Shown piece after piece: positions 23,601 through 41,431 of a DNA stretch of 46,674 nucleotides. The notes beneath the pieces are model-generated. The model was not told the DNA's origin, did not search any database, and worked only from the letters and a program-made list of their open reading frames with translations. The position numbers and the translations under genes were made by a program. The stretch is from Ilumatobacteraceae bacterium (lineage in GTDB: Bacteria > Actinomycetota > Acidimicrobiia > Acidimicrobiales > Ilumatobacteraceae): contig JAFMMJ010000008.1 in the NCBI GenBank assembly GCA_017859785.1, forward strand, positions 1-46,674, in the 5' to 3' direction. Position 1 is the stretch's first letter. Every line of letters starts with the position of its first letter.

Positions 23601-24889
23601 ACGATGGTGACATGTACGTCGCGTTCATCTCTCGGGAGGAGATGCAGACCTGCATGAATGCTCGCCAGCCCTTCCCGCTCTTCGACGTCGGTCCGCCGGG
23701 ATTCCGAAACGACGGCACAGCGATGACCTGCGATCTCCTGTCGGACACTGACACGGGAAGAACCTTCTACCGGGTGATTCTGTCCTTCTATCGATTCAGA
23801 GGCGATAGCGGGCCGGGTATCGGGATCTCCCGGGTGTCATCAGGGATCGATCCGATCTTCCACCGCATCGGATCCAACGGCGACGAGTGGTACGCCGACT
23901 ACCAATACCGACCGGACGAGGGCCGGCCCCGCTGGGTCTCTGTCCGACTGTTCGACGGACGAGTCACTGAGTTCAGGTTGTCAGTCACCTGCCCCGACGT
24001 CGTCTCGCAGAGCGCGCAACTCGGCGAGTTCGAGCAGCCGCTGACATTCGAGGAACCGACAACGACTGAGGCAACAGGCGGCACCGTTGTCCTCGCGCCG
24101 ACCACCACGACAACCGCTCCGGTTGTGGTGGTGCCGGACACGACCGAACCGACGACAACGACAACCACCACAACCACCACGACCACGACGGTCGCTCGTA
24201 GTGGCCCGTCGATCTCGATACGTCAACTTGAGTGCGTCGATACCGGTGAACAGACGTTCACCACCGTCACGATCATCGTTGATGTCACCGAGAACGATGG
24301 CGACGAGGTGGCCCTCACTGGGTCAGCAGTCGTCTTCGGCACCGAGCAGCTCACTGCGCTCTCAGGCGACCGGATCTCGGGCAACACGGTGTACGTGACC
24401 GGAAACGGAACCGCGCGATTCACACTCGAGTTGACGAACGACAACTACGACAGCGTGATCCCCGTAACGGTCACCGCAACCGACCGCGATGGCCGGGACA
24501 CCGACGAGATGACCTTCCGCACCTATCCGTGCGGTGAGCAGGTCAACTCCGATCCCCTCATCACGCTCATGACGAGGTCGTGCACAACAAATCTCACGAA
24601 CGCCAGCACCGTGCTCACCGCCACCGTCTACGTCTATGACGATGACGGCGACACGCTCACGGTCAGCGCGACGCGCCGACCGACGCTCGGAACGCCAGCC
24701 ACGATGACCCCGATCTACATCTACGACGGGAGCATGGGGAGCACTTCGGCAACGGTGACGAACGCGAGCTCGGGTCAATCCGAGGTCCAGTTCCGAATTA
24801 CGTTCGCCGGATCGAGCAACGACTTCGTTACCAGGGTCTCGGTGAGCGACGGTTCAACCACGGTCAGCGAGTCGCTCTCCGGCTGCTGA
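20660..24889 (+). CDS. Giant modular secreted protein with DUF6777-like N-terminal domain
   Basis: 1409 residues. An N-terminal signal anchor follows MKK (LLPLVLTAAIVGTAVSLVFITF, about 7-29). Residues about 75-190 match DUF6777 as I know it, ending VPRARCACGNPL-like (here IPRARCACGNPL). A Thr run (206-213) follows, then about eight modules opened by Cys-rich CPP or CxPC motifs near residues 219, 271, 337, 387, 467, 532, 587 and 636, several closed by a xPG(Y/F)xxxC signature. Next come four beta-rich modules each bounded by Cys (703-791, 811-892, 908-997, 1024-1111), a Thr-rich linker (about 1120-1180) and two more (1192-1290, 1308-1409). No catalytic motif or sortase signal is seen. Likely a surface or extracellular adhesive/structural protein held by disulfides. 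GTG 20660 is favoured by its SD; ATG 20672 is possible. Confidence 0.8.
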   Translation: MGDRMKKLLPLVLTAAIVGTAVSLVFITFGDRNDTAEATTVYVATPGAIGPDSFAPTFATGQLDQATITELRSAQEAGESESLYVVPSGTYGGPGKNICDVEGMKDFFRRNPAKAVAWAAVQGIEPGQIDSYLDSLNPAFLAQDVQLTMYGFRGGQAYGYQAVLQAGTAVLVDDQGIPRARCACGNPLVPEDPPEGTPTTLTQQEETTTTTTTIPELPCPPDAYSREDDGAVFIDGDGNRWRHVVVDGDSYWNFGDTSYTYASEIPGYQEECDPCPPGSRTYDFDDSGRPYTPDEVNSLDDYPDLEPVDLSDEYPGEFNPGSLDDGEVTQWTPTDDWCLPPCPPIDPVTGDTYGDRFVFQDGAWVDATNPGAPAIGDSRQLPGFTDECDPCPPPSNDSNDDVATRTRYADGRLQHWDFLENAWRDNTGVLTEELVDLGKLRDLGSSMIIDGLGSLNDEVNNPSTPIDPCAPCQFHDYMSALPTLITDENGMSWRYDSAQDLWVSDRITSVDPPASLANYIDRYIAEYDPSVDCPYYPQCPPHNDQNFSEFVIDQNGELFVYTTTRGVSYWLSSEGWARYSINDFPGCNPCPVDNGGTIYLYVDANNMMWAYGGNWNPFDGSESVHNAWEIPGFIEHCATFECPPDDPPPGTIYVTSNGVAYEYVGTPDNPSLWTPDGFNWVRGAANLPDCANEQDAELAAVEADIVCGYIEDLGIHFMSVDLVGRVSEVVFVRDDIPNVEGDFSGYERYGNRWVRTYGIGRDTVQRPSGVVRISISSRSGPDVVYNHDVGDCMAPYPTETGLAFGLSITKECGYNSVTGRFELRVRFEDRGVPFTQVKSVVMGSGGTEWRKELGGMSFLREFSEPPRNAFFVTVRLYDNSFTEFYIENTGNCDQTVQPGWQPLNIVASCGLYGGSYAIGVQVAGVQASEIYEIQDDSGITRFGGWAGVYEESDEFWNLWVRDLGSNPPAVDRAVEVTVFTNDGDMYVAFISREEMQTCMNARQPFPLFDVGPPGFRNDGTAMTCDLLSDTDTGRTFYRVILSFYRFRGDSGPGIGISRVSSGIDPIFHRIGSNGDEWYADYQYRPDEGRPRWVSVRLFDGRVTEFRLSVTCPDVVSQSAQLGEFEQPLTFEEPTTTEATGGTVVLAPTTTTTAPVVVVPDTTEPTTTTTTTTTTTTTVARSGPSISIRQLECVDTGEQTFTTVTIIVDVTENDGDEVALTGSAVVFGTEQLTALSGDRISGNTVYVTGNGTARFTLELTNDNYDSVIPVTVTATDRDGRDTDEMTFRTYPCGEQVNSDPLITLMTRSCTTNLTNASTVLTATVYVYDDDGDTLTVSATRRPTLGTPATMTPIYIYDGSMGSTSATVTNASSGQSEVQFRITFAGSSNDFVTRVSVSDGSTTVSESLSGC
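24151..24189 (+). repeat. ACN threonine-codon repeat coding a poly-Thr linker
   Basis: A run of ACA/ACC/ACG codons encodes about thirteen Thr between the fourth and fifth beta modules. It is a probable site of O-glycosylation and of replication slippage. Confidence 0.8.
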
Positions 24890-25047: not shown

Positions 25048-25662
25048 GTGCTGTTTCGCCGGTCGGTCATGCTCCTCGTCGGGCTCTCGCTATTCGGAAT
25101 CAGCCTCGGCCTCGTCGTCCGCGCTGGCCTCGGCCTCGCGCCCTGGGACGTCTTTCACGAGGGGGTATCCGAGCGCCTCGATCTCTCACTCGGCACGGTG
25201 ATCGTGGCCACCAGTTTCGTGGTGTTGTTGCTGTGGATTCCGTTGCGAGAGCGACCGGGGGTCGGCACGATCGGCAACGCGATTCTCGTCGGGGTGTGGG
25301 TCGACATCACCATGGCGGTGATCCCTGAGATCGACGGCGCGCTCATCGGCCGCGTCGCCTTGCTGCTGCTCGGCGTCTCGATCAACGGCCTCGCGACCGG
25401 GCTCTACATCGGCGCGGGCATGGGCTCGGGTCCTCGAGATGGGCTCATGACCGGCATCGCCTCACGAGGGCACTCGATTCGCGCGGTGCGCACCTCGATC
25501 GAGGCGATCGTTCTCGTCACCGGTTTCGCTCTCGGCGGGACGATCGGTGTTGGCACCCTGCTGTACGCGTTCGCCATCGGTCCGATCGCCCACAAGACGA
25601 TCCCGTGGTTCGTTCGACTGTCAGGCCGCGACGCGCGAGGCCTGCTCGTCGAACAGCACTAA
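25048..25662 (+). CDS. YczE/YyaS/YitT-type integral membrane protein
   Basis: 204 residues, about five membrane helices. Family features: LFGISLGLVVRAGLGLAPWDVFHEGV near the N-terminus (G-LG-PWDV) and GLYIGAGMGSGPRDGLMTGI in the middle (G-G-GPRDGLM), which look like an internal repeat of one motif. Function unknown; such genes often lie beside regulators. Start GTG 25048 with CAGACT 6 bases upstream. The gene ends 67 bases before the tetR start. Confidence 0.8.
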   Translation: MLFRRSVMLLVGLSLFGISLGLVVRAGLGLAPWDVFHEGVSERLDLSLGTVIVATSFVVLLLWIPLRERPGVGTIGNAILVGVWVDITMAVIPEIDGALIGRVALLLLGVSINGLATGLYIGAGMGSGPRDGLMTGIASRGHSIRAVRTSIEAIVLVTGFALGGTIGVGTLLYAFAIGPIAHKTIPWFVRLSGRDARGLLVEQH

Positions 25663-25674
25663 CGGCGCGTCGCA

Positions 25675-25705
25675 GAACTATTGCGAGTCACTCTTGCAAT
25701 AGTTC
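25675..25705. promoter_or_regulatory. 31-bp inverted repeat, probable TetR operator
   Basis: Left arm GAACTATTGCGAG (25675-25687) and right arm CTTGCAATAGTTC (25693-25705) are inverted copies with one mismatch in 13, around a 5-base centre. The repeat is AT-rich against its surroundings. A -35-like TTGCAA (25695-25700) lies within the right arm, 16 bases from the -10 TACGTT, so bound repressor would block the promoter of the tetR operon. Confidence 0.75.
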
Positions 25706-25716
25706 ATTGATCCACC

Positions 25717-25722
25717 TACGTT
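25717..25722 (+). promoter_or_regulatory. -10 hexamer TACGTT for the tetR/sulfatase operon
   Basis: TACGTT with 7 bases to ATG 25730 and 16 bases from TTGCAA. This is the most complete -35/-10 pair in the window. Confidence 0.6.
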
Positions 25723-25729
25723 CTGCTTG

Positions 25730-26329
25730 ATGGGGGCATCAGCGAGACAAACGGTTGACGGCCGACGGCAGCGGACCGAGCGCGGTAGGGCCGCCGTGAT
25801 CGATGCGATGTTCGACCTCATCGTGGAGGGTCACCTCCCTCCTGCGGTCGACCAGGTCGCTCGTCGAGCCGGGGTGTCGACGGCCACGATCTTCCGCTAC
25901 TTCGGCACCCTCGACGACCTCCAGCAGGAGACGGTTGCCCGCTTCGTTGAGCGGTTCGACCATCTCCTCGAGATCGACCGGCCAGGCGAGGGGTCGGCGA
26001 CATCACTCGTGCGTCGGTTCGTCGACTCGCGGATCACGCTCTTCTCGACCGTCGGGCCGGTCATGCATCTCGCCTGGGTGCGCTCCCTTGACCAACCGCG
26101 CATCGCCGCCGCAGTGCGGGAGAACCGTCGTCGGCTCCGCGACGCGACCGAGGAGCATTTCGCCTCGGTGCTCGGGCCGCGATCCGCGCGTCGCAGCGGC
26201 CTCGTCGATGCGATCGACGGGATGTGCTCGATTGAGGCCTGGGTGTCGCTCACCCGCATCCACGATCGCTCCCCCGACGAGATCCGACGGGCGTGGACCG
26301 CCGGTGTGTCGAGATTGGTGGGATCGTGA
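25730..26329 (+). CDS. TetR/AcrR-family transcriptional regulator
   Basis: 199 residues. N-terminal helix-turn-helix at about 38-60 (VDQVARRAGVSTATIFRYFGTLDDL), with the tight Y-F signature of the family. The C-terminal helical part is a ligand and dimer domain without recognisable specificity. It probably represses its own operon through the 31-bp palindrome just upstream and is released by a pathway compound. Start ATG 25730 (7 bases from the -10), not the TTG one codon earlier. Its last four bases are shared with the sulfatase start (GTGA). Confidence 0.88.
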   Translation: MGASARQTVDGRRQRTERGRAAVIDAMFDLIVEGHLPPAVDQVARRAGVSTATIFRYFGTLDDLQQETVARFVERFDHLLEIDRPGEGSATSLVRRFVDSRITLFSTVGPVMHLAWVRSLDQPRIAAAVRENRRRLRDATEEHFASVLGPRSARRSGLVDAIDGMCSIEAWVSLTRIHDRSPDEIRRAWTAGVSRLVGS

Positions 26330-28590
26330 CGAGACCCGCACGCTTCGAGGGGACGATCGGGCGCACTGTCGCTCAGTCGACTCCCTGGTGGGATGAACCA
26401 CCAACAGCAGCCGAGGGCTCACCTGATGTGGTGGTGATCCTGCTCGATGACACCGGCTTCGCGCAGTTGGGATGTTTCGGCTCCGAGATCGACACCCCGA
26501 ATATCGATGCACTGGCCGCAGGCGGTCTGCGCTTCACCAACTTCCACGTCACGCCGCTCTGCTCCCCCACCCGAGCCGCGCTCATGACGGGCCGCGCCAA
26601 CCACGCGGTCGGCATGCGATCGGTGTCGAACTTCCGAACCGGGTTCCCCAATCAACTCGGTCACATCTCTCCCCACGCGACGACGATGGCCGAGGTCTTC
26701 CGTGAGGCCGGCTACGCGACGCTGTGCACCGGCAAGTGGCATCTCGCACCGATCGAGCAGTGCTCAGCAGCCGGCCCATTCGACCAGTGGCCGCTCGGCC
26801 GCGGCTTCGACCGCTTCTACGGATTCCTCGACGGTGAGACCGACCAGTTCCACCCCGACCTCGTCTCGGACAACCACATGGTGGAGCCACCGGCTACTCC
26901 CGACGAGGGTTACCACCTGTCGGAAGACCTCATCGATCGGGCGCTTGCGATGTACTCCGATTCCGTCGGAGTCCGACCTGATCGTCCCGTCTTCCTCTAC
27001 CTCCCCTTCGGTGCCACCCACGCCCCGCACCAAGCGCCAGCGGCGTTCATGGAGAAGTACCGAGGCCGCTTCGACGATGGCTGGGATGCCGCCCGCGATC
27101 GGTGGTTCGCCCGTCAGGTCGAGATGGGGATCGTGCCCGCGCACACGCGCCTCGCACCCCGTAATCCCGGTGTCGAGGCCTGGGATGAGCTCCCCGAGGT
27201 GCAGCGACGATTAGCCGCTCGACTACAAGAGGCCTTCGCGGCCTTCCTCGACCACACCGATGCCCAGATCGGCCGTCTCGTCGATGGGCTTCGCCGGCTC
27301 GGCCGCCTCGACAACACGATCCTCATGGTGCTGGCCGACAACGGGGCCTCCCAGGAAGGCGGCCCATACGGGGTGATGCACGAGATGAAGTTCTTCAACG
27401 GCATCCTCGAGACCCCCGAGCAGGCGGTCGCGCGCATCGACGACATCGGTGGTCCGAACAGCCACACCAACTACCCCTGGGGCTGGGCACAGGCTGGGAA
27501 CACTCCATTCCGCTGGTACAAGCAGAACACCCATGAGGGTGGGGTGCACGTACCCCTCGTCGTCCACTGGCCCTCGGGTATCGCCGAAGATCAGCGCGGT
27601 TCGCTCCGCGACCAGTTCGTTCATGTCTCCGATATCGCCCCCACGCTCTACGACCTCGCGGGCGTCGAAGCACCGGCGGTGTTCCATGGGGTCGAGCAGA
27701 TTCCGGTGAGCGGCCGCTCGTTCAGTGAGATCATCGATGACGCCTCAGCACCCGCTGCCAACACGCTTCAGTACTTCGAGAACGGCGGATCGAGAGCCCT
27801 GGTCGCTGGCGAGTGGAAGGCGGTGTGCCGGCATGTGCCCGGTGCCGATTTCGATACCGAGGCCTGGGAGCTCTACGACCTCTCCGCTGACCCATCGGAG
27901 TGCCTCGATCTCGCCGCCGATCAGCCAGAGCGTCTTGAGCGACTGAAAGATCTCTGGTGGGAAGAGGCCGAGCGTCACGGCGTGTTGCCACTCGACGACC
28001 GGACCTTCGAGTTGTTCGGTGCCCGCTTCCGAGACCGCTCCCCGCACCCGGCCGATCGGCGCTACGTGTACCGGCCGCCGATGTCACCGATTCCGGCGCA
28101 GGCCGCCGCGCAGATCGGCGGTCGCAACTTCGACCTGACCGCGCGGCTCGAACGCGACGCATCCGACGACGGCGTGCTCTTCGCGACCGGAACCGCCAAC
28201 GCGGGCATCTCAGTCTTCGTCCTCAACGGCCACCTGCATGTCGACTACAACGCCTTCTTCGACCACACGATCGCGGTCTCGACCATCCCGGTGCCGGCCG
28301 GATCGAGCACCGTGTCGGTCGCGTTCCGCCGCGGCGAGGGCTCCACCGGCCGAATCGATCTCCGTGTCGACGACCACGAGGCGGGTTCGGTTGAGATCCC
28401 GTTCATCATGCGGGTGATCTCCTCGGTCGGGGCGAGCGTCGGCCGAGACGCCGGGTCTGCGGTGTCGACCCTTTACTCGGGGCCGTTCGCGTTCACCGGA
28501 GTCATCGACGAACTCGAGATCCGCTTGCTGTCGCGCCGCGACGCCGAGACCGCCGACGCGGAGGCGCGAGCCGAGATGGGACGCCAGTGA
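26326..28590 (+). CDS. Arylsulfatase (type I, formylglycine-dependent)
   Basis: 754 residues, the length of AtsA-like actinobacterial arylsulfatases with a C-terminal beta domain. The modified Cys is C79 in LCSPTRAALMTGR (C-x-P-x-R), to be converted to formylglycine. Metal ligands include DD at 41-42 (VVVILLDDTGF) and DN in MVLADNGAS; KWHLAP carries the Lys/His pair. The last 170 residues (from about ARLERDASDDGVLF) form a lectin-like sandwich usual in this clade. It hydrolyses organic sulfate esters. No signal peptide is seen, so a cytoplasmic location is likely. No maturase (FGE) gene is in the window. Start GTG 26326 overlaps tetR by 4. Confidence 0.92.
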   Translation: MTRPARFEGTIGRTVAQSTPWWDEPPTAAEGSPDVVVILLDDTGFAQLGCFGSEIDTPNIDALAAGGLRFTNFHVTPLCSPTRAALMTGRANHAVGMRSVSNFRTGFPNQLGHISPHATTMAEVFREAGYATLCTGKWHLAPIEQCSAAGPFDQWPLGRGFDRFYGFLDGETDQFHPDLVSDNHMVEPPATPDEGYHLSEDLIDRALAMYSDSVGVRPDRPVFLYLPFGATHAPHQAPAAFMEKYRGRFDDGWDAARDRWFARQVEMGIVPAHTRLAPRNPGVEAWDELPEVQRRLAARLQEAFAAFLDHTDAQIGRLVDGLRRLGRLDNTILMVLADNGASQEGGPYGVMHEMKFFNGILETPEQAVARIDDIGGPNSHTNYPWGWAQAGNTPFRWYKQNTHEGGVHVPLVVHWPSGIAEDQRGSLRDQFVHVSDIAPTLYDLAGVEAPAVFHGVEQIPVSGRSFSEIIDDASAPAANTLQYFENGGSRALVAGEWKAVCRHVPGADFDTEAWELYDLSADPSECLDLAADQPERLERLKDLWWEEAERHGVLPLDDRTFELFGARFRDRSPHPADRRYVYRPPMSPIPAQAAAQIGGRNFDLTARLERDASDDGVLFATGTANAGISVFVLNGHLHVDYNAFFDHTIAVSTIPVPAGSSTVSVAFRRGEGSTGRIDLRVDDHEAGSVEIPFIMRVISSVGASVGRDAGSAVSTLYSGPFAFTGVIDELEIRLLSRRDAETADAEARAEMGRQ

Positions 28591-29423
28591 TGCGCGTCGT
28601 CACGCTCGGCACCGGGTCGCCCCTTCCCGATCCGAATCGGGCTGGCCCGTCGACGCTGGTGAGCGTCGACGACCAACATCTACTCATCGACTGCGGCCGA
28701 GGGGTATTGATGCGCCTCGCCGCCGCCGGGGTTGGGGCCGCGCAGCTCTCGGCGGTGCTCATCACCCATCTGCACAGCGACCATCTCACCGACCTCAACG
28801 ACGTGATCACCACTCGGTGGATCTCGACGTTCGAGTCGACCCCGCTCACCGTGGTGGGACCGCCCGGCACCCAAGCGGTGGTCGACTCGATCGAGTCCAT
28901 GCTCCGCGCCGACACCGGCTACCGGCTCGCCCACCACGACGATCTCACCGAGGCGCCGATCACCGAGGTGATCGAACTCACCGAGGGGCCAGTCGAGCTG
29001 CCCGGCGGCCCACGGATCACCGCTGCCCCCACCGATCACCGTCCGGTCGAGCCGAGCGTCGCCTATCGCATTGAGCACGACGGTCGCGCCGTCGTGCTCG
29101 CCGGCGACACGGTGCCGTGCACCGGACTCGACTCGCTCACTCGCGGCGCCGACATCTTGGTGCATACGGCGATACGCGCCGATGTCATCGCGAACATTCC
29201 GATCGCGCGACTCAACGACGTCTGCGACTACCACTCATCGATCGAGCAGGCCGCCGACACCGCCGAACGAGCCGGTGTCAGCGTGCTCGTGCTCACCCAT
29301 CACGTCCCCGCCCATCCCCCCGGGCAGGGCGACGAGGTGGCGGCGATCGCGAGCCGGAACTTCTCCGGCCGCGTCGTCGTCGCCGACGACCTCACCACCG
29401 TCACCATCCCTGAGGAGCACTGA
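28590..29423 (+). CDS. Metallo-beta-lactamase-fold hydrolase (RNase Z/AtsA-like branch)
   Basis: 277 residues. The zinc motif HLHSDH is at residues 60-65, preceded by the strand LLIDCGRGVLMRL. A later His (TDHRP) and the Asp of VLAGDTVPC provide the remaining ligands, and LTHHVP the final His. The overall order resembles RNase Z-like and AtsA-type MBL proteins, so a small-molecule ester, lactone or sulfate-ester hydrolase fits this operon better than a tRNA enzyme; that is inference. ATG 28590 overlaps the sulfatase stop by one base (TGATG); a GTG one codon earlier is an alternative. Confidence 0.85.
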   Translation: MRVVTLGTGSPLPDPNRAGPSTLVSVDDQHLLIDCGRGVLMRLAAAGVGAAQLSAVLITHLHSDHLTDLNDVITTRWISTFESTPLTVVGPPGTQAVVDSIESMLRADTGYRLAHHDDLTEAPITEVIELTEGPVELPGGPRITAAPTDHRPVEPSVAYRIEHDGRAVVLAGDTVPCTGLDSLTRGADILVHTAIRADVIANIPIARLNDVCDYHSSIEQAADTAERAGVSVLVLTHHVPAHPPGQGDEVAAIASRNFSGRVVVADDLTTVTIPEEH

Positions 29424-30334
29424 TGAAGGCCCTGCGCACCCCCGATGACCGTTTCGCCGAACTCCCCGACTTCGACTTCGAGCCGCACTACGTCGAGATC
29501 GACGACACCGAGGGCGGGACACTGCGCGTCCACTATCTCGACGAGGGCCCGGCTGACGCGCCCCCGGTGCTGTTGATGCACGGCGAGCCGTCGTGGTGCT
29601 TCCTTTACCGGCACATGATCCCAGTGCTGACCGCTGCGGGTCATCGGGTGGTGGCACCCGATCTCATCGGTTTCGGGCGCAGCGACAAGCCGACCGAGAC
29701 CGATGACTACACCTACGCGCGCCACGTCGGCTGGATGCGCGAGGCACTGTTCAGCGAGCTCGACCTCACCAACATCACTTTCTTCGGTCAGGACTGGGGA
29801 GGGCTGATCGGCCTGCGACTCGTGGCAGCTGAACCCGAACGGTTCGCCCGAGTCGTTATCGGCAACACGGGTCTACCGACCGGCCACGGGCCGGCGAGCG
29901 AAGCCTTCCTGAAGTGGCAGGAGTTCTCGCGAACCTCACCGCATTTCCCGATCGGAGCGATCATCAACGGCGGTTGCACCACCGATCTCACCCCCGAGGT
30001 GATCGCCGCCTACGACGCCCCGTTCCCCGATGACTCCTTCGTTGCTGGAGCGCGGATCTTCCCCTCGCTCGTGCCCACCACGCCGGACGATCCAGCGAGT
30101 GGTGACAACTCGGCTGCCTGGGAGGTGCTGTCGCGGTTCGATCGTCCGTTCCTTCTCGCGTTTAGCGACTCAGATCCAATCACTCGAGGAGGTGACGCCC
30201 CGTTCCTCGCGAAGGTGCCGGGAACCTCCGGTCAGGCGCACACCACCATCGTCGGCGGGGGTCACTTCCTCCAGGAGGACCGCGGCCCCGAACTGGCCCG
30301 GGTGATCGTTGAGTTCATTCAGGGCTCTCGATGA
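29423..30334 (+). CDS. Haloalkane dehalogenase (alpha/beta hydrolase, HLD-I-like)
   Basis: 303 residues. Oxyanion-hole motif HGEPSW (53-58), nucleophile elbow GQDWGG with D124 followed by the halide-binding W125, an acid candidate D251 in FSDSDPITRG, and base H281 in GGGHFLQED. The position of the acid after strand 7 fits subfamily HLD-I. The enzyme cleaves carbon-halogen bonds with water, giving an alcohol and a halide. Some relatives annotated this way have other hydrolase roles, so the natural substrate needs measuring. ATG shares its A with the previous stop. Confidence 0.85.
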   Translation: MKALRTPDDRFAELPDFDFEPHYVEIDDTEGGTLRVHYLDEGPADAPPVLLMHGEPSWCFLYRHMIPVLTAAGHRVVAPDLIGFGRSDKPTETDDYTYARHVGWMREALFSELDLTNITFFGQDWGGLIGLRLVAAEPERFARVVIGNTGLPTGHGPASEAFLKWQEFSRTSPHFPIGAIINGGCTTDLTPEVIAAYDAPFPDDSFVAGARIFPSLVPTTPDDPASGDNSAAWEVLSRFDRPFLLAFSDSDPITRGGDAPFLAKVPGTSGQAHTTIVGGGHFLQEDRGPELARVIVEFIQGSR

Positions 30335-31206
30335 GCGATCTTCGTTCGCTGAGCGCTCGGGCGGCCTTCGCCTCGCACCGCCTCATCGGGTGGATCTTCT
30401 GGGATCCACGGGGCATCGAGCGGTATGCGGCCCTCGGGATCCCGAATGGCGCCGGCTACTACGTCACCACCCGTGCCGGCCTGCTCGGTCACGCTGGGGC
30501 CTCGGTGGTCACCGCCGCCTACGGGTCGATCCATCCCGAGTTCATCTCCGTGAGTTACGCACTCCTTGACCAGCACGCCAGCGTCGACGACGCGATCCGA
30601 GTGCGCGACGAAGCGGTGCTCGCCGGACTCGCCGAGCACGCGCCCGAGATCTGCGCCGACCTCGCGGCGATCGCCCCCGCGCTGTGGGAAGCCGCTGACA
30701 CCCTTCCGTCGACGGGCCGACCGCTCTTCGCCGCCCAGTCCGCGCATCGACGACCCGACGAGCCGACCCTCGATGCTTGGCTCGCGGTGAACTGCATTCG
30801 CGAGTGGCGCGGCGACACTCATTGGGCTCTGCAGATCGCTGACGACCTCACCGGCACCGAGGCCGGAGTGCTCGACGGCGCCTGGCGTGACTACGAGGCC
30901 GACTGGTTGCCGAGGAGTCGCGGCGCTGACGACGCGGCGCTCGCGGAGGCCTACCGCCGACTCGAGGCACGCGGCTTCGTGACCGATGGCCGGGTGAACC
31001 CCGCCGGGGTTGCTCATCGTCAAAGCCTCGAGGATCGTCTCGATGATCTCTCCGTCGGCGCGTGGACCGCGTTCGGCGAGGCGGCCACCGAGTCGTTCAT
31101 CTCTCTTGTTGATTCGGTCGGCGATCACCTCGTCAGCCGAATCGACGCCACCGCGGGCGAGCGGTGGATGCCCGCCGCCCGCCGTCATCACAGGAGTCGC
31201 GCATGA
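30331..31206 (+). CDS. SCO6745-family helical protein, operon member
   Basis: 291 residues, helical, soluble. It shares with the protein at 14005-14745 the early ARAAFASHRLIGWIFWDPRG-like helix, the short stretch YYVTTRAGLLGHAG, and a following AAYGSIHPEFI (compare AAFGYFSPDLI). A central conserved region has NCIREWRGDTHW. The C-terminal 100 residues (DYEADWLPRSRG ... LSVGAWTAFGEAATES) resemble a winged-helix segment followed by a helix. No enzyme motif is seen. Its presence between a dehalogenase and an SRPBCC gene suggests a pathway or regulatory role. ATGA overlap with the dehalogenase stop. Confidence 0.65.
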   Translation: MSDLRSLSARAAFASHRLIGWIFWDPRGIERYAALGIPNGAGYYVTTRAGLLGHAGASVVTAAYGSIHPEFISVSYALLDQHASVDDAIRVRDEAVLAGLAEHAPEICADLAAIAPALWEAADTLPSTGRPLFAAQSAHRRPDEPTLDAWLAVNCIREWRGDTHWALQIADDLTGTEAGVLDGAWRDYEADWLPRSRGADDAALAEAYRRLEARGFVTDGRVNPAGVAHRQSLEDRLDDLSVGAWTAFGEAATESFISLVDSVGDHLVSRIDATAGERWMPAARRHHRSRA

Positions 31207-31649
31207 TCCACATCGAACGCTCATCGGAGATCGCAGCCACACCGGCCGAGATCTGGGAGGTGCTCGCCGACTTCGGCGCGCTGGCTTCGTGGGTGCCGAT
31301 GATCCAGCACACCTGTCCGCTCTCTGATCAAACCGAAGGGGTCGGCACGGTGCGCCGGGTGCAGGTGCAACGCCAGACGTTGGTCGAGACGGTGACCGTC
31401 TGGTCGCCACCGGACACCCTCACCTACACGATCGAAGGTCTTCCCTCGATCGCTGGGGTGCCGGTGACCACCTGGCGTCTCATCGCTGACGGCCCAAACA
31501 CCCGGGTCACGGTGTCGACCGATCTCGACACCGGCCGCAACCCGATCCGACGGCTCGTCGGTCGCAAAGTGCTCGATCGTCTCGGGTTGGCGGCGGAGTT
31601 CATGCTCGCCGGCCTGGCCGCGCGGGTCGCCCCGGGGGCGAGCTCATGA
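31203..31649 (+). CDS. SRPBCC-family (polyketide cyclase/START-like) ligand-binding protein
   Basis: 148 residues. The SRPBCC start is clear: MIHIERSSEIAATPAEIWEVLADFGALASWVP (the IxAxPxxVWxxLxDF pattern). Strands VGTVRRVQVQ, LVETVTVWSPPDTLTYTIEG and TTWRLIADGPNTRVTVST follow, then a long C-terminal helix. The fold binds hydrophobic or aromatic ligands; some members are cyclases or hydratases. Context suggests it binds or converts an intermediate of the sulfatase/dehalogenase pathway. Start ATG 31203 (ATGA overlap); the 13 residues from 31164 are noise. Confidence 0.82.
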   Translation: MIHIERSSEIAATPAEIWEVLADFGALASWVPMIQHTCPLSDQTEGVGTVRRVQVQRQTLVETVTVWSPPDTLTYTIEGLPSIAGVPVTTWRLIADGPNTRVTVSTDLDTGRNPIRRLVGRKVLDRLGLAAEFMLAGLAARVAPGASS

Positions 31650-34321
31650 ACGCGCGGCCCGACGTTGTCGTGATCATGACCGATGAGGAGCGGGCCGCTC
31701 CCGTGTACGAGACCGAGGAGTTGCGCGAATGGCGGCGGACATTGTTGGGCACCGCCTGGTTCGACGACCACGGTGTCTCCTTCGATCGGCACTACACCGG
31801 ATCGCTCGCCTGCGTGCCGAGCCGACCAACACTGTTCACCGGCCAATATCCCGATGTCCACGGGGTCACCCAAACCGACGGGCTCGGCAAGATGGCCGAC
31901 GACTCGCGGATGAGGTGGCTCCGCCCGGGTGAGGTGCCGACCCTCGGCAACTGGTTTCGCGCCGCCGGCTACGACACCGTCTACGACGGCAAGTGGCACA
32001 TCTCCCATGCCGACCTCCACGACTCGTCGGGGGAGCCACTCGCGACGAACACCGCCGAAGGCGAGGTGCTCGACGACAACGTTGCTCGTTATCTCGACGC
32101 GGACCCACTCAACCCGTTCGGCTTCTCCGGCTGGGTCGGCCCCGAACCCCACGGCGGGCTGTTCGCGAACTCGGGACTGGTGCGCGACCCGCTGATCGCC
32201 GACCGTGTCGTTCGTTGGCTCGACGACCGTTACGCGCGTCGCGCCGCCGGTGACGCCGAGGCGCTCCGCCCGTTTCTGCTGGTGGTCAGCTTCGTGAACC
32301 CCCACGACATCGTGCTGTTTCCGCTCTGGATGAACCGCGGCATGCCCGAGGCCCTCGACGGCATTCGGGTGCCGTCGGTGCCAATGGCGCCCTCGGCGTT
32401 CGAGGATCTTCGCCACAAGCCCGCCGCGCAGGTCGCCTATCGCGAGGCGTATCCGAGCTGTTACGGGCCGGCTGCGGCGGTCGCCCCGATCTACTCGAAG
32501 AACCATCAGCTCTACCGCGACCTTTACCACCGTCTCCATACGGCCGTCGACGGACCGCTCGAGCGGGTTCGCGCCGCGGTGACGGCGGGAGCCACCGCCC
32601 AAGGTCACGACACGGTGCTCGTGCGCACCTCCGATCACGGCGAACTTCTCGGCGCGCATGGTGGCCTTCACCAGAAGTGGTTTCAGCTCTACGACGAGGC
32701 GACCCGAGTGCCGTTCTCGATCGCTCGGCTCGGTTCGACGCCGACGGTCGCCCGACGCGTCACCGATCCAACCTCACATATCGACCTCGTGCCGACCCTG
32801 CTCGGTCTGGCCTCCATCGACGAGACCGCAACCGCGGAGGTGCTTCGCGAGTCGTTCTCCGAGGTGCACCCGCTGCCCGGCACCGATCTCTCCGATGTGA
32901 TCACCGGCGCCGAGGCTGATCCACATCGGGTCGTGTATCTCATGACTCGCGACAACATGCCTGAGGGCGATACCGGGGCGAGCGGAGTGTCACGGGCCCA
33001 CGGTCGCGTCACCGACGCCCCCGGTCCGCTGCGCATCAACGTCGCCGCCCACGTCGCATCGAACTTCGAGGGGGTCGTGTATCGACCCGACGCCGACGAA
33101 CTGCCCGCGGGCCACGGCCATCTCTGGAAGTTGGTTCGCACCTTCGATGACCCGTCGACGTGGACCGAACCGGGTGTGCGTCAGTTGGCGAGCGACGGCA
33201 TCGGCGGGCCGACCTATCGCACCGGGGTCCTTCCCGACCAGTGGGAGCTCTACGACCTGACCGACGATCCGGTTGAGATGGTGAACCGGGCGAACGACCC
33301 GGCGGCGGCCGAGGTGCTCGAGGCGCTTCGCGTTGTGATGAAGGCTGAGCGGCATCGGGCGGTTCCTGAGCGAAACGAGCCCTGGCCGTACGCGGTGAGC
33401 CGGATCACTGAGATCGACCGCGTGCCGCTGCTGCCACCGACGGAACTCATCCGCGCCCAGGTCGCCCAACGGGTGCGATCTCGGGTTCGCGCCCGCATCG
33501 CCGAGCGACGCAACTCGATTCGCGTCACCGCTCCTCCCCCGGCGCGGGCGGTTCGCCGGTTGCTGTCGCGACTCGGCCTTCATCCGGATGATCCGACACC
33601 GTCGTCGGCTGATCTATCGGGTCGACGGGCGTTGGTCATCGCGACCAACCACGGGCAACTCGACATTGGTCGACCGACCGGGGTGTTCGCAAGCGAGTTG
33701 ACCGTTCCCTATTACGCCTTCGTCGACGCGGGGATGAGCGTTGAGGTCGCGAGCCCGCTCGGCGGGGTGATCCCGGTTGATCCGCTGTCACTGAAGCCGG
33801 CGGTGCGTACGGCGGCCGACGACCGGTTCCTCTCCGACGCGGTGCTCCGCGCCGCGATGAACGCCTCGCGCCCGGTCGGATCGCTCGACATGGCCGACTA
33901 CGACATCGTGTATCTGGCCGGCGGGTGGGGCGCGGCCTTCGACCTCGGCACCTCTGAAGTGCTCGGCGATCAGATGACCGCGGCGGTCGCAGCTGGCGCG
34001 GCGATCGGTGGGGTCTGCCATGGCCCGCTCGGATTGCTCCGGGCTCGCGATACCGACGGCCGCCCGCTGGTGGAGGGTCGCCGAATCAGTGCGGTCACTG
34101 ACAAGCAAGTGCGTGAACTCGGCATCACCTCGACGCCGCTACATCCCGAGCGCGATCTCCGCGCCGCGGGAGCGCTCTTCGAGGGCCGGTCGGGGCGTCG
34201 CGATGTGCTGGCCAACCACTGGGTGGTCGACGGGAAGCTGGTGACCGGCCAGAACCAGAACGCGGCGCCGATGGTCGCGCGAGAACTCATTGGGCTCGTC
34301 GCTTCAGGAGGTGCACGGTGA
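31646..34321 (+). CDS. Sulfatase fused to a C-terminal DJ-1/PfpI domain
   Basis: 891 residues. N-terminal sulfatase (about 1-600): DVVVIMTDEERAAP supplies the first metal acids, C56 in ACVPSRPTLFTGQ is the C-x-P-S-R formylglycine site, GKWHISH carries Lys/His, and RTSDHGELLGAHG the DHG motif; the layout is closer to choline-sulfatase-type than to the first sulfatase. A basic Arg-rich linker (about 600-655) leads to a DJ-1/PfpI domain (about 658-885) with the nucleophile elbow GGVCHGPLG (C791), of the Hsp31-like type that can act as glyoxalase III, amidase or chaperone. The reading frame is continuous, so the fusion is real in this sequence. It joins neighbours by ATGA and GTGA overlaps. Confidence 0.88.
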   Translation: MNARPDVVVIMTDEERAAPVYETEELREWRRTLLGTAWFDDHGVSFDRHYTGSLACVPSRPTLFTGQYPDVHGVTQTDGLGKMADDSRMRWLRPGEVPTLGNWFRAAGYDTVYDGKWHISHADLHDSSGEPLATNTAEGEVLDDNVARYLDADPLNPFGFSGWVGPEPHGGLFANSGLVRDPLIADRVVRWLDDRYARRAAGDAEALRPFLLVVSFVNPHDIVLFPLWMNRGMPEALDGIRVPSVPMAPSAFEDLRHKPAAQVAYREAYPSCYGPAAAVAPIYSKNHQLYRDLYHRLHTAVDGPLERVRAAVTAGATAQGHDTVLVRTSDHGELLGAHGGLHQKWFQLYDEATRVPFSIARLGSTPTVARRVTDPTSHIDLVPTLLGLASIDETATAEVLRESFSEVHPLPGTDLSDVITGAEADPHRVVYLMTRDNMPEGDTGASGVSRAHGRVTDAPGPLRINVAAHVASNFEGVVYRPDADELPAGHGHLWKLVRTFDDPSTWTEPGVRQLASDGIGGPTYRTGVLPDQWELYDLTDDPVEMVNRANDPAAAEVLEALRVVMKAERHRAVPERNEPWPYAVSRITEIDRVPLLPPTELIRAQVAQRVRSRVRARIAERRNSIRVTAPPPARAVRRLLSRLGLHPDDPTPSSADLSGRRALVIATNHGQLDIGRPTGVFASELTVPYYAFVDAGMSVEVASPLGGVIPVDPLSLKPAVRTAADDRFLSDAVLRAAMNASRPVGSLDMADYDIVYLAGGWGAAFDLGTSEVLGDQMTAAVAAGAAIGGVCHGPLGLLRARDTDGRPLVEGRRISAVTDKQVRELGITSTPLHPERDLRAAGALFEGRSGRRDVLANHWVVDGKLVTGQNQNAAPMVARELIGLVASGGAR

Positions 34322-35136
34322 GCCGTGACCCGTCATACGGAGTTGTCGACCGCGAGTACGGCCTGCGTCTCGCGACCTGCGATCCAGCCGAGGACGGTCC
34401 GATCTGGATGGTCAATCTCATGCGCTATCGCGAGCGAGCCGCTTACGCCGACGGCTCCGATGGCGGTCGCTCGGGTCGCGAGGCTGATGACGAGTACGCC
34501 CCGGTCGACGTGCTCGCCGACATCGGCGCCGAGGTCGTCTTCCTCGCCGATGTGGAGGTGCAGGCTCTCGGTGCGGGGCCGGCTTGGGACCGGGTCGCGG
34601 TGGTGCGGTATCCGACGCGGCGTTCGTTCATCGAGATGCAGTCACGCGAGGATTTCCGTGAGCGCCATGTGCACAAGGAGGCGGGCATGGCGGCGACGAT
34701 CGTGATGGGTTGTCGACCGATGGAGGTGCCCGCTCTCCCCGACGGTGTCGTCGAGGTCGATTGGGCTGATGTGCCCCATCCGCCGACCGATGACGACGGG
34801 CCGATGATGGTGATCCACGTGCTGTCGTTCAACGATCCCGACGGCGCGGAGCGAACCCCGGATCACATGTCGGCCTATCAGCGCGTCGCTGCCGAATCCG
34901 CCGCCGCCCAGGGCATTCGTATCGCCGGATGGTTCTCCGTGGAGGGCACGATCCTCGGCGATGGACGACAGTGGCATCAGGTTCGGTTCAACGGATTCCC
35001 GTCGCGCCGAGCGTTCATGGCGGTGGTGAACGATCCGCGTCGGTTGGAGGCGCAGCGCGATCATCGCGAGGTGGCCATCGCCGACACCTACACGCTCATG
35101 ACCCGGGCGACCATCCCGTTCAGCGAAGCTCGCTGA
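34318..35136 (+). CDS. Tandem DUF1330-like (ferredoxin-like dimeric alpha-beta barrel) protein
   Basis: 272 residues in two similar halves. Half 1 (about 20-140) has IWMVNLMRYRERAAY, WDRVAVVRYPTRRSFIEMQSREDF and AGMAATIVM. Half 2 (about 160-265) has MMVIHVLSFND, WHQVRFNGFPSRRAFMAVVNDPR and a final TYTLM strand. Each half follows the alpha/beta order of dimeric ferredoxin-like proteins (DUF1330, EthD, antibiotic monooxygenase relatives), so the chain is a covalent pseudo-dimer. Such folds act as small cofactor-free oxygenases, decarboxylases or dehydratases; activity unknown. It is the last gene of the operon and starts at GTG 34318 by GTGA overlap. Confidence 0.7.
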   Translation: MSRDPSYGVVDREYGLRLATCDPAEDGPIWMVNLMRYRERAAYADGSDGGRSGREADDEYAPVDVLADIGAEVVFLADVEVQALGAGPAWDRVAVVRYPTRRSFIEMQSREDFRERHVHKEAGMAATIVMGCRPMEVPALPDGVVEVDWADVPHPPTDDDGPMMVIHVLSFNDPDGAERTPDHMSAYQRVAAESAAAQGIRIAGWFSVEGTILGDGRQWHQVRFNGFPSRRAFMAVVNDPRRLEAQRDHREVAIADTYTLMTRATIPFSEAR

Positions 35137-35151
35137 ACCCGAAAACGGCGA

Positions 35152-35175
35152 TGGGGCCCGGCGAACCGGGCCCCA
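35152..35175. terminator. Strong GC hairpin between convergent operons
   Basis: TGGGGCCCGG and CCGGGCCCCA pair perfectly (10 bp) around the tetraloop CGAA. There is no clear T-run, as is common in high-GC Actinobacteria. It lies 15 bases after the tetR operon and 58 bases beyond the end of the opposing transporter operon, so it can serve both. Confidence 0.75.
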
Positions 35176-35233
35176 CCTCCGAATCGTTTCGGTGGGAGGT
35201 CGAGACGACCCCACACCGCTCAGATGTGTCGCG

Positions 35234-36439
35234 TCAGTTGCCGCCCTCATTGAGGGTGACCGACATCGGCGAGTAACCCTCACCGAACAGGTCGACACCG
35301 CCGGCACCGGCGAGAGCCCAAGCGGCCTCGACGATCTCGTTGGTGTAGGCATCCGCGTCCGGCGCGGCCGTCAACACGGTCGTGCCCTCGAGGTTCGGGG
35401 TCTGCTGGCTGATCTCGACCGTCTGGTTCCAAGCGGCCTCGTCGGTGTAGCCGACGCCGTTGGTGGACGGCCAGATGAGCTTGTTGACCTCGTTCATCTG
35501 CCACAACTGGTGGCTCGCGCCGAGGGTCGGGCCGACTCCGAGCACGATGTCTGCGCATCCCTGGACGTCGTCACGGCAGTGCGCCCAGCCGAGCATCGAG
35601 GCCGCGACGAAGCGAACCGCGATGTCCTTGTAGGCGGCATCGGAGGCGAGACGGGCGCCATCGGCCCAGATCGCATCCTGAAGCATGCCGACGCCGTAGT
35701 CCTCGTAGTTGACGACGTTGAAGTCGTCCGGCGTGTAGAGCTCGCCGGTGTCGGGGTTCACGGCCTCGAGCACCATGGCGTACTCGTTGTAGGTCATCGC
35801 TTCGGCGGCGTCGATCTCCCCTTCGAGGAGGGCGGCCATGTCGAAGTTCTGACCGACGAGCTCAACGTCGGCGGCGGGGTCGAGACCCTCGGCGCCGAGG
35901 GCGGCGAAGATCTCGTACTCGTTGCCGAAGCCCCAGTTGCCGATCTTCTTGCCGGCGAAGTCGGCGGGTGAGGTGATGCCCTTGTCCTTGAACGACACCT
36001 GCAGGGTGCCGGAGCGCTGGAAGATCTGCGCGATGTTCACGATGTCGGCACCGGCCTCACGGCTGGCGAGGGCCTTGGGCACCCAGGCGAGGGCGAAGTC
36101 GACGTCGCCGTTCGCGAGCTGGGTCTGCGGCACGATGTCGAGACCGCCTTCGACGATGGTGACGTCGAGGCAGTGGTCGGCGTAGTAGCCCTGGTCGACG
36201 GCTGCGTAGTAGCCGGCGAACTGCGCCTGGGCGAACCACTGGAGCTGCAGGCTGACCTCATCAGGGGTCGTGCAGGTCTCCTCGGCGGCCGGCTCGGCAG
36301 CGGGCTCGGCGGCCGGCTCGGCAGCAGGCTCGGCGGCCGGCTCGGCAGCGGGTTCGGCGTCGTCGGAGCCGCAGGCTGCGACGAGCAGTGATACCGCGGC
36401 CAGTCCAGCCAGGACTCCGCGGTGCTTGCTGATTCTCAT
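35234..36439 (-). CDS. ABC transporter substrate-binding lipoprotein, NMT1/THI5-like
   Basis: 401 residues. Signal peptide with lipobox LLVAACGS (Cys at about 23), then a spacer of six EPAA units, then the NMT1/THI5-like domain: VSLQLQWFAQAQFAGYYAAVDQGYYADHCLDVTIVEGG (first part), later IGNWGFGNEYE and EAMTYNEYAM. This fold binds pyrimidine-like ligands in thiamine-precursor uptake. Here the operon points to a pyrimidine or a breakdown product. SD GGGGGAG precedes ATG 36439. The ATG overlaps the upstream permease stop (ATGA). It is the last gene of the operon, just before the terminator hairpin. Confidence 0.9.
   Translation of the reverse strand: MRISKHRGVLAGLAAVSLLVAACGSDDAEPAAEPAAEPAAEPAAEPAAEPAAEETCTTPDEVSLQLQWFAQAQFAGYYAAVDQGYYADHCLDVTIVEGGLDIVPQTQLANGDVDFALAWVPKALASREAGADIVNIAQIFQRSGTLQVSFKDKGITSPADFAGKKIGNWGFGNEYEIFAALGAEGLDPAADVELVGQNFDMAALLEGEIDAAEAMTYNEYAMVLEAVNPDTGELYTPDDFNVVNYEDYGVGMLQDAIWADGARLASDAAYKDIAVRFVAASMLGWAHCRDDVQGCADIVLGVGPTLGASHQLWQMNEVNKLIWPSTNGVGYTDEAAWNQTVEISQQTPNLEGTTVLTAAPDADAYTNEIVEAAWALAGAGGVDLFGEGYSPMSVTLNEGGN
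36281..36352 (-). repeat. 12-bp tandem repeat x6 (EPAA spacer)
   Basis: Six 12-base units CTCGGC(G/A)GC(C/G)GG and variants, alternating in two forms so that the higher-order period is 24 bases. Together they encode the Glu-Pro-Ala-Ala spacer between lipid anchor and ligand domain. Copy number is likely to vary between strains. Confidence 0.85.
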
Positions 36440-37221
36440 GTGGTTGCTCCCCCTGGGGCTTTGCCCCTCCGGTTTGAGGTGATGTTCTCCAACAGTACGG
36501 AGACTAGGTAAAAGGTGAGGCCGAGCAGGCATGCGCCGATGACGTACGCCCAGGCGACCGCATTCTTCGAATTGGCGAAGTTGGAGGGGATGAAATATCC
36601 GAGGCCGTTCTGGCGGCCACCGAAGTACTCCGAGACGAAGGCGGTGATGACGGCGGTTGGCGCCGCGATCTTCACCGCGGTGAACAAATACGGCACCGCG
36701 TTCGGGATGCGGGTCTTGACCAGCACCGACCGCGGAGTCGCCGCGTAAGAGCGCATGAGCTCGAGGTGGATAGGGCTCACCTGCCGGAGCCCCTTCGCGA
36801 CGTTCACGAGCACGATGAAGAACACGATGAGCATCACCATGAGTCGCCGTGGCACCTCGCTCGTCGAGGTGAACATGTTCTGGAAGACGGCGACGAGCAC
36901 GATGATTGGGATCGCGTTGAGCGCGATCGCGAGCGGCGAGACGAGTTCGTTGAGCAGGTTGGAGCGCATCAGCGCAAAGCTGGCGGCCACCCCGAGCGCG
37001 ACGCCGAGCAGGAGGCCGACCAGCGCGTTGCCGCCTGACACGAAAGCAGCGGCGCGCACGAGACCGACGTTGTCGGTGAAGGCCGACCAGATAGCGCTCG
37101 GTGCCGGAAGGAAGTAGGGCTTGAGGTCGAAACCGCGCACGAGCGCCTCCCAAGCAGCCACGAAGGCGACACCCCATACAAGAGGTGGGAGCACCGCGGA
37201 GGCGAGGCGCGCGACTCTCAT
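36436..37221 (-). CDS. ABC transporter permease (nitrate/taurine/thiamine-precursor type)
   Basis: 261 residues, about six membrane helices. The cytoplasmic loop that docks the ATPase is ELMRSYAATPRSVLVKTRIPNAVPYLFTAVKIAAPTAVI (E-x-x-x-x-x-A-x-x-x-x-x-x-x-x-x-x-P pattern of BPD permeases). It pairs with the second permease in the operon to form a heterodimeric channel for the solute delivered by the NMT1-type lipoprotein. Start ATG 37221 overlaps the ATPase stop by 4 bases. Confidence 0.9.
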   Translation of the reverse strand: MRVARLASAVLPPLVWGVAFVAAWEALVRGFDLKPYFLPAPSAIWSAFTDNVGLVRAAAFVSGGNALVGLLLGVALGVAASFALMRSNLLNELVSPLAIALNAIPIIVLVAVFQNMFTSTSEVPRRLMVMLIVFFIVLVNVAKGLRQVSPIHLELMRSYAATPRSVLVKTRIPNAVPYLFTAVKIAAPTAVITAFVSEYFGGRQNGLGYFIPSNFANSKNAVAWAYVIGACLLGLTFYLVSVLLENITSNRRGKAPGGATT

Positions 37222-39903: not shown

Positions 39904-39905
39904 GA

Positions 39906-41390: not shown

Positions 41391-41431
41391 GTGCTCCTCC
41401 AAGGGGCGGGTGTGCGGGGGTGTGGTGACGG

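Follow-up and report, generated by a model that had tools for sequence, protein, structure and literature searches.

The window analyzed here is a stretch of DNA of 46,674 nucleotides from an Ilumatobacteraceae bacterium. Between positions 25675 and 35175 it contains a unit made up of eight open frames on the forward strand. Start and stop codons were confirmed for the frames at 25727, 26326, 28587, 29423, 30331, 31203, 31646, and 34318, and the seven gene junctions overlap, in order, by 4, 4, 1, 4, 4, 4, and 4 bases. This agrees with the original prediction of an eight-gene unit with overlaps of 1 or 4 bases that contains no transporter; none is found among the eight genes. A convergent ABC-transporter operon (35234-41402) was considered as the missing importer and rejected because it is not a recurrent neighbor and its partners resemble a separate pathway.

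The first gene (25727..26329, + strand) is predicted to encode a TetR-family regulator (TetR_N 25.7 bits, cut-off 24). On its 5' side is a candidate palindromic operator (25675..25705), an inverted repeat with 13-nt arms that are 92% complementary and separated by a 5-nt spacer. A similar TATTGC...GCAATA palindrome occurs at only two (L035 and L136) of 100 loci (20 loci, L031-L050, and 80 loci, L071-L150), leading us to reject an operator conserved across loci and suggesting that the regulators differ. Folding and a repeat scan revealed a strong hairpin (35146..35181) between the convergent operons, where a 76-nt stretch has a folding energy of -41.8 kcal/mol (z -4.0) and none of 200 shuffles was equally stable. 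It lacks a T-run and did not appear in the output of a terminator scan; its position between convergent genes suggests that it may serve both strands. A scan for sigma-70-like promoters found 0, compared to 0.4 in shuffles. Of the operator/promoter and hairpin predicted to border the unit, we recovered the palindrome and the strong hairpin, but no sigma-70-like promoter.

The second gene (26326..28590, + strand) is predicted to encode an S1-type sulfatase that we call Sulf1, which resembles the arylsulfatase of Pseudomonas aeruginosa and contains the motif CSPTR (Sulfatase 1.8e-64). It matches the structures 4cxk and 1hdh of this arylsulfatase, PAS, with an E of 7e-90. Residues 32-552 of Sulf1 align with PAS and place the Sulf1 cysteine against the catalytic position; unlike PAS, Sulf1 has about 200 extra residues at the C-terminus. 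Of 39 relatives, 38 keep Cys78 of Sulf1, and the exception is a poorly aligned frame. Both Sulf1 and the product of the seventh gene, Sulf2, contain the PF00884 domain, the CxPxR motif, and the metal-site Asp/His/Asn residues of the S1 sulfatase family. The two had been predicted to be of the formylglycine type; both keep CxPxR, but no formylglycine-generating enzyme (FGE; PF03781) was found in the genome of the window, nor in the nine listed members of its genus (E<=1e-45; genomes 89-98.8% complete). Formylglycine formation in this genus is therefore unexplained and we do not claim active formylglycine enzymes for the host of the window. The earlier reading had not noted this absence of FGE. 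Of the 18 genomes bearing the Sulf2 fusion described below, 12 have a strong FGE match. An anaerobic, radical-SAM sulfatase maturase as the modifier of the cysteine was rejected because none of the nine genomes searched, two of them from the genus of the window, had a match over the cut-off; eight had weak matches.

Sulf2 (31646..34321, + strand) is 891 amino acids long. Pfam, sequence, and fold matches place an S1-type sulfatase at about residues 1-580 and an Hsp31/glyoxalase-III-type DJ-1 domain at about residues 655-889, forming the C-terminal part of the protein. The original prediction had overlooked the DJ-1 domain and what it took to be a second sulfatase is a sulfatase::DJ-1 fusion. 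Hsp31/glyoxalase III proteins have a Glu-Cys-His residue set. The DJ-1 half of Sulf2 contains this set (E684, C791, and H792) and shares the fold of 1u9c, YDR533c (1qvw), 4lru, and others (Z 30.0-31.8); unlike 1u9c, 1qvw, and 4lru, it is the C-terminal half of a sulfatase. Twelve catalytic-site residues spread over both halves, C56, P58, R60, K116, H118, H220, D330, H331, K344, E684, C791, and H792, are invariant in 24 fusion sequences. Of the 296 genomes of the class, 18 carry the fusion with both halves (among the matches listed), as do the best 80 of 480 loci. Both active-site motifs lie within one open frame in 77 of these 80 fusion loci, the exceptions being L079, L128, and L130, of which the last two end at contig edges. 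The hosts of the 80 named loci are mostly Acidimicrobiia and also include Nocardioides, Streptomyces, and Frankiales. A search of one open-access library found no account of a sulfatase::DJ-1 (PfpI) fusion.

The third gene (28587..29423, + strand) is predicted to encode an MBL-fold hydrolase which, from its fold and metal ligands, is a candidate MBL-type sulfuric-ester hydrolase. It contains HxHxDH ligands, and the metal ligands are kept in 35 of 35 relatives. The best fold match is 8gyg, the MBL-type arylsulfatase of Pseudoalteromonas atlantica T6c (Z 33.9 versus 32.0 to RNase Z; rmsd 2.1, 265 residues aligned), and the two also align as a single stretch. The two are 26% identical and the function of the window protein is putative. 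The protein scores just over the threshold for 'ribonuclease Z' (367 bits, cut-off 363) and is missing about 55 residues that E. coli RNase Z has between the YRIE and GDT segments, where the tRNA-binding arm of tRNase Z lies. There is no other close MBL relative in the genome, the second match having 18.7 bits. Two other loci (L083 and L098) carry an extra homologous MBL protein, and a Pfam scan of the L083 copy found an alkyl-sulfatase dimerisation domain. The resemblance of the MBL protein to an arylsulfatase had been overlooked in the earlier reading.

The fourth gene (29423..30334, + strand) is predicted to encode a haloalkane dehalogenase (HLD) of the subfamily I type (481 bits to PRK00870, cut-off 265). 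Members of this subfamily are marked by an Asp nucleophile followed by a Trp, a second halide-binding Trp in the cap, and a catalytic Asp and His. The window protein has D124, W125, W165, D249/D251, and H281 and is predicted to release halide. Among its relatives, D124, W125, D249, D251, and H281 are present in 35 of 35 sequences and E55 and W165 in 33 of 35. The protein matches the solved structures 6f9o (DpcA), 4mj3 (DmrA), and 5esr (DccA) end to end. All three have the catalytic pentad in common with the window HLD, which differs from them in that its gene lies within or beside sulfatase genes. The residue counts for HLD, the MBL protein, and Sulf1 come from open frames of 80 loci, 13 loci with G handles, and the window, in which the same species may recur.

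The remaining genes are predicted to encode an SCO6745/HTH_67 family protein (30331..31206, + strand; 3.7e-64, 164 bits, cut-off 120), an SRPBCC (Polyketide_cyc2) ligand-binding protein (31203..31649, + strand; 1.7e-21), and, at the end of the unit (34318..35136, + strand), a protein that matched no Pfam or NCBIfam family. The nearest solved structure to this last protein is RPA0582 (3dca; E 1e-11, residues 25-136), which is DUF1330-like. Pfam and NCBIfam supported the MBL hydrolase, SCO6745, SRPBCC, and HLD labels given earlier, whereas the DUF1330-like label draws on the structural match.

We then asked how widely this gene neighborhood is conserved, using open frames weighted by homology rather than curated genes for the relatives so that distances and overlaps are approximate. 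The SRPBCC gene lies directly upstream of the fusion in 68 of 76 testable loci. Within 9 kb of the fusion in 80 loci, we found SRPBCC in 77, TetR in 39, DUF1330-like in 33, MBL in 31, Sulf1 in 29, HLD in 26, and SCO6745 in 11. Where 5 kb was available on both sides (37 loci), HLD and Sulf1 occurred together in 14, HLD alone in 2, and Sulf1 alone in 4, while the remaining 17 had neither gene (Fisher P 5e-5, relatedness ignored); 21 of the 37 thus have no HLD near the fusion. Because the same families recur as neighbors across many genomes, the grouping reflects more than chance, and one that is accidental or specific to this strain is ruled out. The predicted co-occurrence outside the strain is borne out by this wide recurrence and by HLD-sulfatase linkage beyond the cluster.

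At E<=1e-60, HLD was detected in 173 of the 296 class members, mostly as a single copy. These include three genomes of 0.7-1.1 Mb (74-94% complete) with no sulfatase at E<=1e-15. To examine linkage, 40 regions were fetched, 39 around HLD and one (G271) around a fusion locus already covered; five regions from fusion-bearing genomes (G250, G071, G202, G271, and G039) were excluded, leaving 35 genomes. These comprise the 20 best HLD matches outside fusion-bearing genomes and 15 picked by hand before nearby sulfatases were inspected, a few of which were already known to hold a distant sulfatase match (on the same contig in G141). Of these 35, which are not a random sample, at least 11 have a sulfatase within 5 kb of HLD, versus 0.8 expected. 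A twelfth (G242), linked by open-frame clustering and missing from the matches listed, was left out of this count; 24 of the 35 have no sulfatase within 5 kb of HLD among the matches listed. By genus, the linkage occurs in 8 of 28 versus 0.8 expected (P 5e-7). On an HLD tree from a short search (63 rows, with good support at 17 of 60 inner branches), the linked label takes seven changes, and the well-supported branches alone force three for each group; the tree leaves out frames without the motif word or outside the length range and includes 10 of the 12 linked fusion-free rows.

The genes with their intact active-site residues, the fusion, the conserved neighborhood, and the repeated HLD-sulfatase linkage were all observed, and a desulfation-plus-dehalogenation module is supported. 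We infer the reactions, their order, their cytosolic site, and the inducer of the operon. Our reading, to which we give about an even chance, is that the unit is a TetR-controlled operon for the cytosolic breakdown of a small organic compound bearing a sulfate ester and, in at least some cases, a halogen on an sp3 carbon. The SRPBCC protein would present the substrate and the fused sulfatase would cleave sulfate esters, with the PAS-like sulfatase and the MBL hydrolase added in the full form. HLD would exchange halide for a hydroxyl group, and the DJ-1 domain may convert a reactive alpha-oxo-aldehyde arising downstream to a hydroxy acid. The DUF1330-like and SCO6745 proteins are probably accessory. 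Counting against this reading are the 21 well-flanked loci with no HLD near the fusion, the occurrence of HLD in genomes where no sulfatase was found, the 24 fusion-free genomes with no listed sulfatase close to HLD, the absence of FGE in the genus, the lack of a transporter in the unit, and, for the MBL protein, its ribonuclease Z score and the lack of another close relative in the genome. The original prediction had sulfate and halide removed stepwise from one compound, and it is partly supported: the cluster recurs widely and HLD-sulfatase linkage is also seen outside it. Loss of both groups from a single compound is compatible with the data, but the 21 loci with no nearby HLD and the presence of HLD where no sulfatase was found count against it.

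It is possible, although we think it doubtful, that the genes form a broad sulfate-scavenging or detoxification unit with a shared regulator and no single substrate, in which HLD has substrates of its own or is simply carried along. The modular make-up, with the fusion and SRPBCC occurring without HLD and Sulf1 at many loci, is consistent with this, as is the prevalence of mostly single-copy HLD in the class; the HLD-sulfatase linkage by genus outside the fusion cluster and the tight overlapping gene junctions argue against it. We regard it as unlikely that both alkaline-phosphatase-superfamily proteins are phospho- or phosphonate-ester hydrolases with an unmodified or partly modified Cys. The lack of FGE in the nine genus members, the maturase result, and the presence of a phosphonate monoester hydrolase (4uph, Z 23.6) among the structural matches point this way. 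Against it are the preserved CxPxR and metal-site residues, the FGE matches in most fusion-bearing genomes, and the fact that named sulfatases are the nearest matches both by sequence and by fold.

A role in the breakdown of steroid sulfates, terpenoid sulfates, or other sulfated polycyclic natural products, with incidental halide removal, seems very unlikely. Near the fusion in L045-L048 are genes for thiolase-like and HsaA-like flavin monooxygenase proteins, along with acyl-CoA ligase in L045-L047 and enoyl-CoA hydratase in L045 and L046, but the window has no such neighbors, and most loci lack all of them except the ligase. That the genes are chance neighbors in one strain has next to no probability, having already been refuted by the conserved neighborhood.

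Within our preferred reading of sulfate-ester breakdown, the algal substrate suggested originally is a possibility. A strictly algal reading is weakened by relatives in soil actinobacteria, namely Nocardioides sp. Root1257, Streptomyces sp. CB02009, and Frankiales; the Root1257 locus (L083) carries SRPBCC, HLD, MBL, and sulfatase genes along with the fusion. Degradation of algal chlorosulfolipids or similar aliphatic chloro-sulfates is quite improbable, yet this chemistry would explain a sulfatase fused to a glyoxalase-type domain beside a dehalogenase. Given the general structure of these lipids, the sulfatases would take off sulfate esters and the dehalogenase would hydrolyze chlorides. A geminal dichloride beside the freed alcohol could yield a hydroxy-ketone, oxidation of which would give a 2-oxo-aldehyde; the fused DJ-1 domain might then form a 2-hydroxy acid that enters normal fatty-acid breakdown. 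A recent report describes chlorosulfolipids from seawater of the Eastern Pacific that carry as many as 11 chlorines, with one or two sulfates at most on the C27 forms, and its text contains neither dehalogenase nor sulfatase nor any word in degrad- (PMC13413282). Titles and the beginnings of abstracts in one open-access library yielded no account of bacterial chlorosulfolipid breakdown and no description of this cluster.

The slfRCHSL alkyl-sulfate operon of Psychrobacter sp. DAB_AL62B is also compact, regulator-led, and devoted to sulfate-ester breakdown, and is repressed without substrate; the accessible part of its description lists an AraC/XylS regulator, an alkyl sulfatase, an alcohol dehydrogenase, an aldehyde oxidoreductase, and a fatty-acid-CoA ligase, and mentions no dehalogenase, DJ-1 fusion, or SRPBCC protein (PMC10779009). 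Genes for such an alkyl sulfatase, alcohol- and aldehyde-oxidizing enzymes, and a CoA ligase are absent from the eight of the unit.

The abstract of one paper calls the biological role of haloalkane dehalogenases 'still poorly understood' (PMC10619424). The recurrent genetic link between HLD and sulfatases suggests a testable role for these enzymes, the processing of natural halogenated organosulfates, and the architecture of the sulfatase::DJ-1 fusion merits enzyme assays. A gene set shared by aquatic and soil actinobacteria, with this unusual fusion protein at its center, appears suited to removing sulfate groups, and in many cases halogens, from small molecules.

The window lies in a 1.96 Mb genome estimated to be 98.8% complete. 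Reading of the frames, with starts and stops checked, confirmed the predicted run of overlapping genes: eight forward-strand genes (25727-35136) whose junctions overlap by 4, 4, 1, 4, 4, 4 and 4 bases. They encode, in order, a TetR regulator, a sulfatase (Sulf1; PF00884, closest solved structure the Pseudomonas aeruginosa arylsulfatase PAS), an MBL-fold hydrolase, a haloalkane dehalogenase (PRK00870 score 481 bits; most similar to the solved structures 6f9o, 4mj3 and 5esr), an SCO6745/HTH_67 protein, an SRPBCC protein, a second sulfatase (Sulf2) and an RPA0582-like protein. The expected flanking elements were found in part: a palindrome (25675-25705) lies 5' of the operon and a strong hairpin, lacking a T-run, lies 3' of it, and the promoter was not borne out, as no sigma-70-type match was found. 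Upstream are genes for a 1409-aa protein in which Cys-Pro-rich and Thr-rich stretches recur (20660-24889, forward strand) and a YczE-type membrane protein (25048-25662). A convergent operon on the reverse strand (35234-41402) encodes an ABC transporter (taurine/nitrate-type ATPase and permease), an F420-dependent LLM oxidoreductase (TIGR03842) and a methylmalonate-semialdehyde dehydrogenase.

Sulf2 is not the plain sulfatase originally predicted. Residues 1 to about 580 form an S1-type sulfatase, and a DJ-1/PfpI domain is fused C-terminally (about 655-889). In a structure model built from 24 sequences (mean pLDDT 78, pTM 0.63), the first half resembles many sulfatases (Z up to 25.6) and the DJ-1 half groups with 1u9c, YDR533c and glyoxalase III (Z 30.0-31.8, rmsd 1.7-2.2 among the top seven matches listed). 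All 24 fusions compared share the sulfatase motif Cys56-x-Pro-x-Arg60 and the DJ-1 residues Glu684, Cys791 and His792. Our searches of one open-access paper library gave no account of this fusion or of the cluster.

Catalytic residues of the other enzymes are also conserved. Asp124, Trp125, Asp249, Asp251 and His281 of the dehalogenase are present in 35/35 cluster copies, the window's included, and Glu55 and Trp165 in 33/35; the exceptions are very divergent copies on a long tree branch (L118:11101 and L125:14021) that have no equivalents of these two residues. Cys78 of Sulf1 is kept in 38 of 39 relatives, the remaining one being a poorly aligned frame, and the HxHxDH motif, His151, Asp174, His216 and His238 of the MBL protein in all 35 copies.

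The gene families also co-occur elsewhere. Counted from the matches listed, 18 of 296 Acidimicrobiia genomes contain the fusion with both halves (a TAG reported within the match in genome G002 is the end of that match), and the same families recur around it in varying order and strand. A collection of named genomes gave 480 matching loci. Among the best 80 of these, hosted mainly by Acidimicrobiia but also by Nocardioides, Streptomyces and Frankiales records, 77 carry the two active-site motifs within a single open frame, and neighbors within 9 kb include SRPBCC (77/80), TetR (39), DUF1330-like (33), MBL (31), Sulf1 (29), dehalogenase (26) and SCO6745 (11). SRPBCC lies directly upstream of the fusion in 68 of the 76 loci with that sequence available. 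Where 5 kb was present on both sides (37 loci), 16 had the dehalogenase, 18 had Sulf1 and 14 had both; contig ends may hide neighbors in the other 43. From these counts, SRPBCC plus the fusion is the smallest conserved unit, and the dehalogenase, second sulfatase and MBL protein make up another set whose members tend to occur together. Other genes also occur near the fusion. A GrdB/PrdB-like gene (glycine/D-proline reductase type; e.g. L143:3722-4882) is found at 10 of 94 clustered loci, nine of which also have a protein of the 227-aa type that belongs to no Pfam family. A GST-like protein that weakly resembles isoprene-epoxide GST and beta-etherase (L040:12324-13460, also L042, L044 and others) belongs to a family likewise present at 10 of the 94. 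Gene order in L112, a record titled as a Bifidobacterium breve MAG, is nearly that of L111 (an IMCC26207 record); the title is probably misassigned.

Dehalogenase and sulfatase genes are also linked outside the fusion. The dehalogenase was detected (E<=1e-60) in 173/296 class genomes, mostly as a single copy. In a non-random selection of 35 fusion-free genomes with the dehalogenase, at least 11 had a sulfatase within 5 kb of it versus 0.8 expected from sulfatase density; counted by genus, the linkage was 8/28 versus 0.8 expected (P 5e-7). In a quick dehalogenase tree the linked state needs 7 changes, or 3 when just the well-supported branches are counted, and no group is one clade, so the linkage does not look like a single inherited event. 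In three genomes of 0.7-1.1 Mb (L205, L206 and L207) the dehalogenase is present but no sulfatase was found at E<=1e-15, suggesting that the enzyme may have a sulfatase-independent role. These three loci have several neighboring gene families in common.

The MBL protein could be an arylsulfatase or an RNase Z. Its structure model (mean pLDDT 92) matches the MBL-type arylsulfatase 8gyg best (Foldseek E 4e-24, Z 33.9), with RNase Z behind at Z 32.0. By sequence E-value, E. coli RNase Z narrowly outranks 8gyg (5e-20 vs 4e-19), and the protein narrowly exceeds the NCBIfam 'ribonuclease Z' cut-off (367 vs 363); the genome has no second close relative. The alignment with 8gyg is a single stretch, whereas those with two bacterial RNase Z chains are split in two, and we therefore read the protein as missing about 55 residues of E. 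coli RNase Z. A third sulfuric-ester hydrolase, independent of formylglycine, is a plausible candidate role. At L083 (332-1591; Nocardioides sp. Root1257) and L098 (3459-4727), both in non-Acidimicrobiia hosts, a homologous extra MBL protein adjoins the cluster; a Pfam scan of the L083 copy found an alkyl-sulfatase dimerisation domain, and NCBIfam placed neither in a family over cut-off.

Formylglycine-generating enzyme (FGE) was found neither in the window's genome nor in 8 other listed genomes of the genus (E<=1e-45), and no radical-SAM-type maturase exceeded the cut-off in a set of 9 genomes, two of them of this genus. FGE is present in 17/121 family genomes. PF03781 matches occur in 16 of the 18 fusion-bearing genomes, in 12 of them at E<1e-75; the weaker matches in the other four (1e-11 to 1e-31) we take to be related ergothioneine-type proteins. 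CxPxR is nevertheless kept in all five sulfatase-family proteins of the window's genome; the genus may use an unknown maturation route, the enzymes may act unmodified, or they may have changed function and not be sulfatases there. The MBL protein would escape this problem. According to a review of sulfur metabolism in M. tuberculosis (PMC3141025), type II and III sulfatases, which do not depend on FGE, may account for the sulfatase activity that remains in its absence.

The closest described system is the alkyl-sulfate slf operon (PMC10779009), which is like the cluster in logic but has in that account none of its distinctive genes. The original prediction was of stepwise sulfate and halide removal from one compound; as a joint module it is strengthened, and as a pathway it stays a hypothesis. 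Since haloalkane dehalogenases act on sp3 carbon, bromophenol sulfates are poor substrate candidates and aliphatic halo-sulfates are better. Chlorosulfolipids are natural products that bear numerous aliphatic chlorides as well as sulfate esters. Recent work detected them in coastal seawater (PMC13413282). We consider a substrate of this type quite unlikely: it agrees with the enzymes present and would account for the sulfatase::DJ-1 fusion, but hosts from soil and the many loci that lack a dehalogenase point to a wider substrate range.
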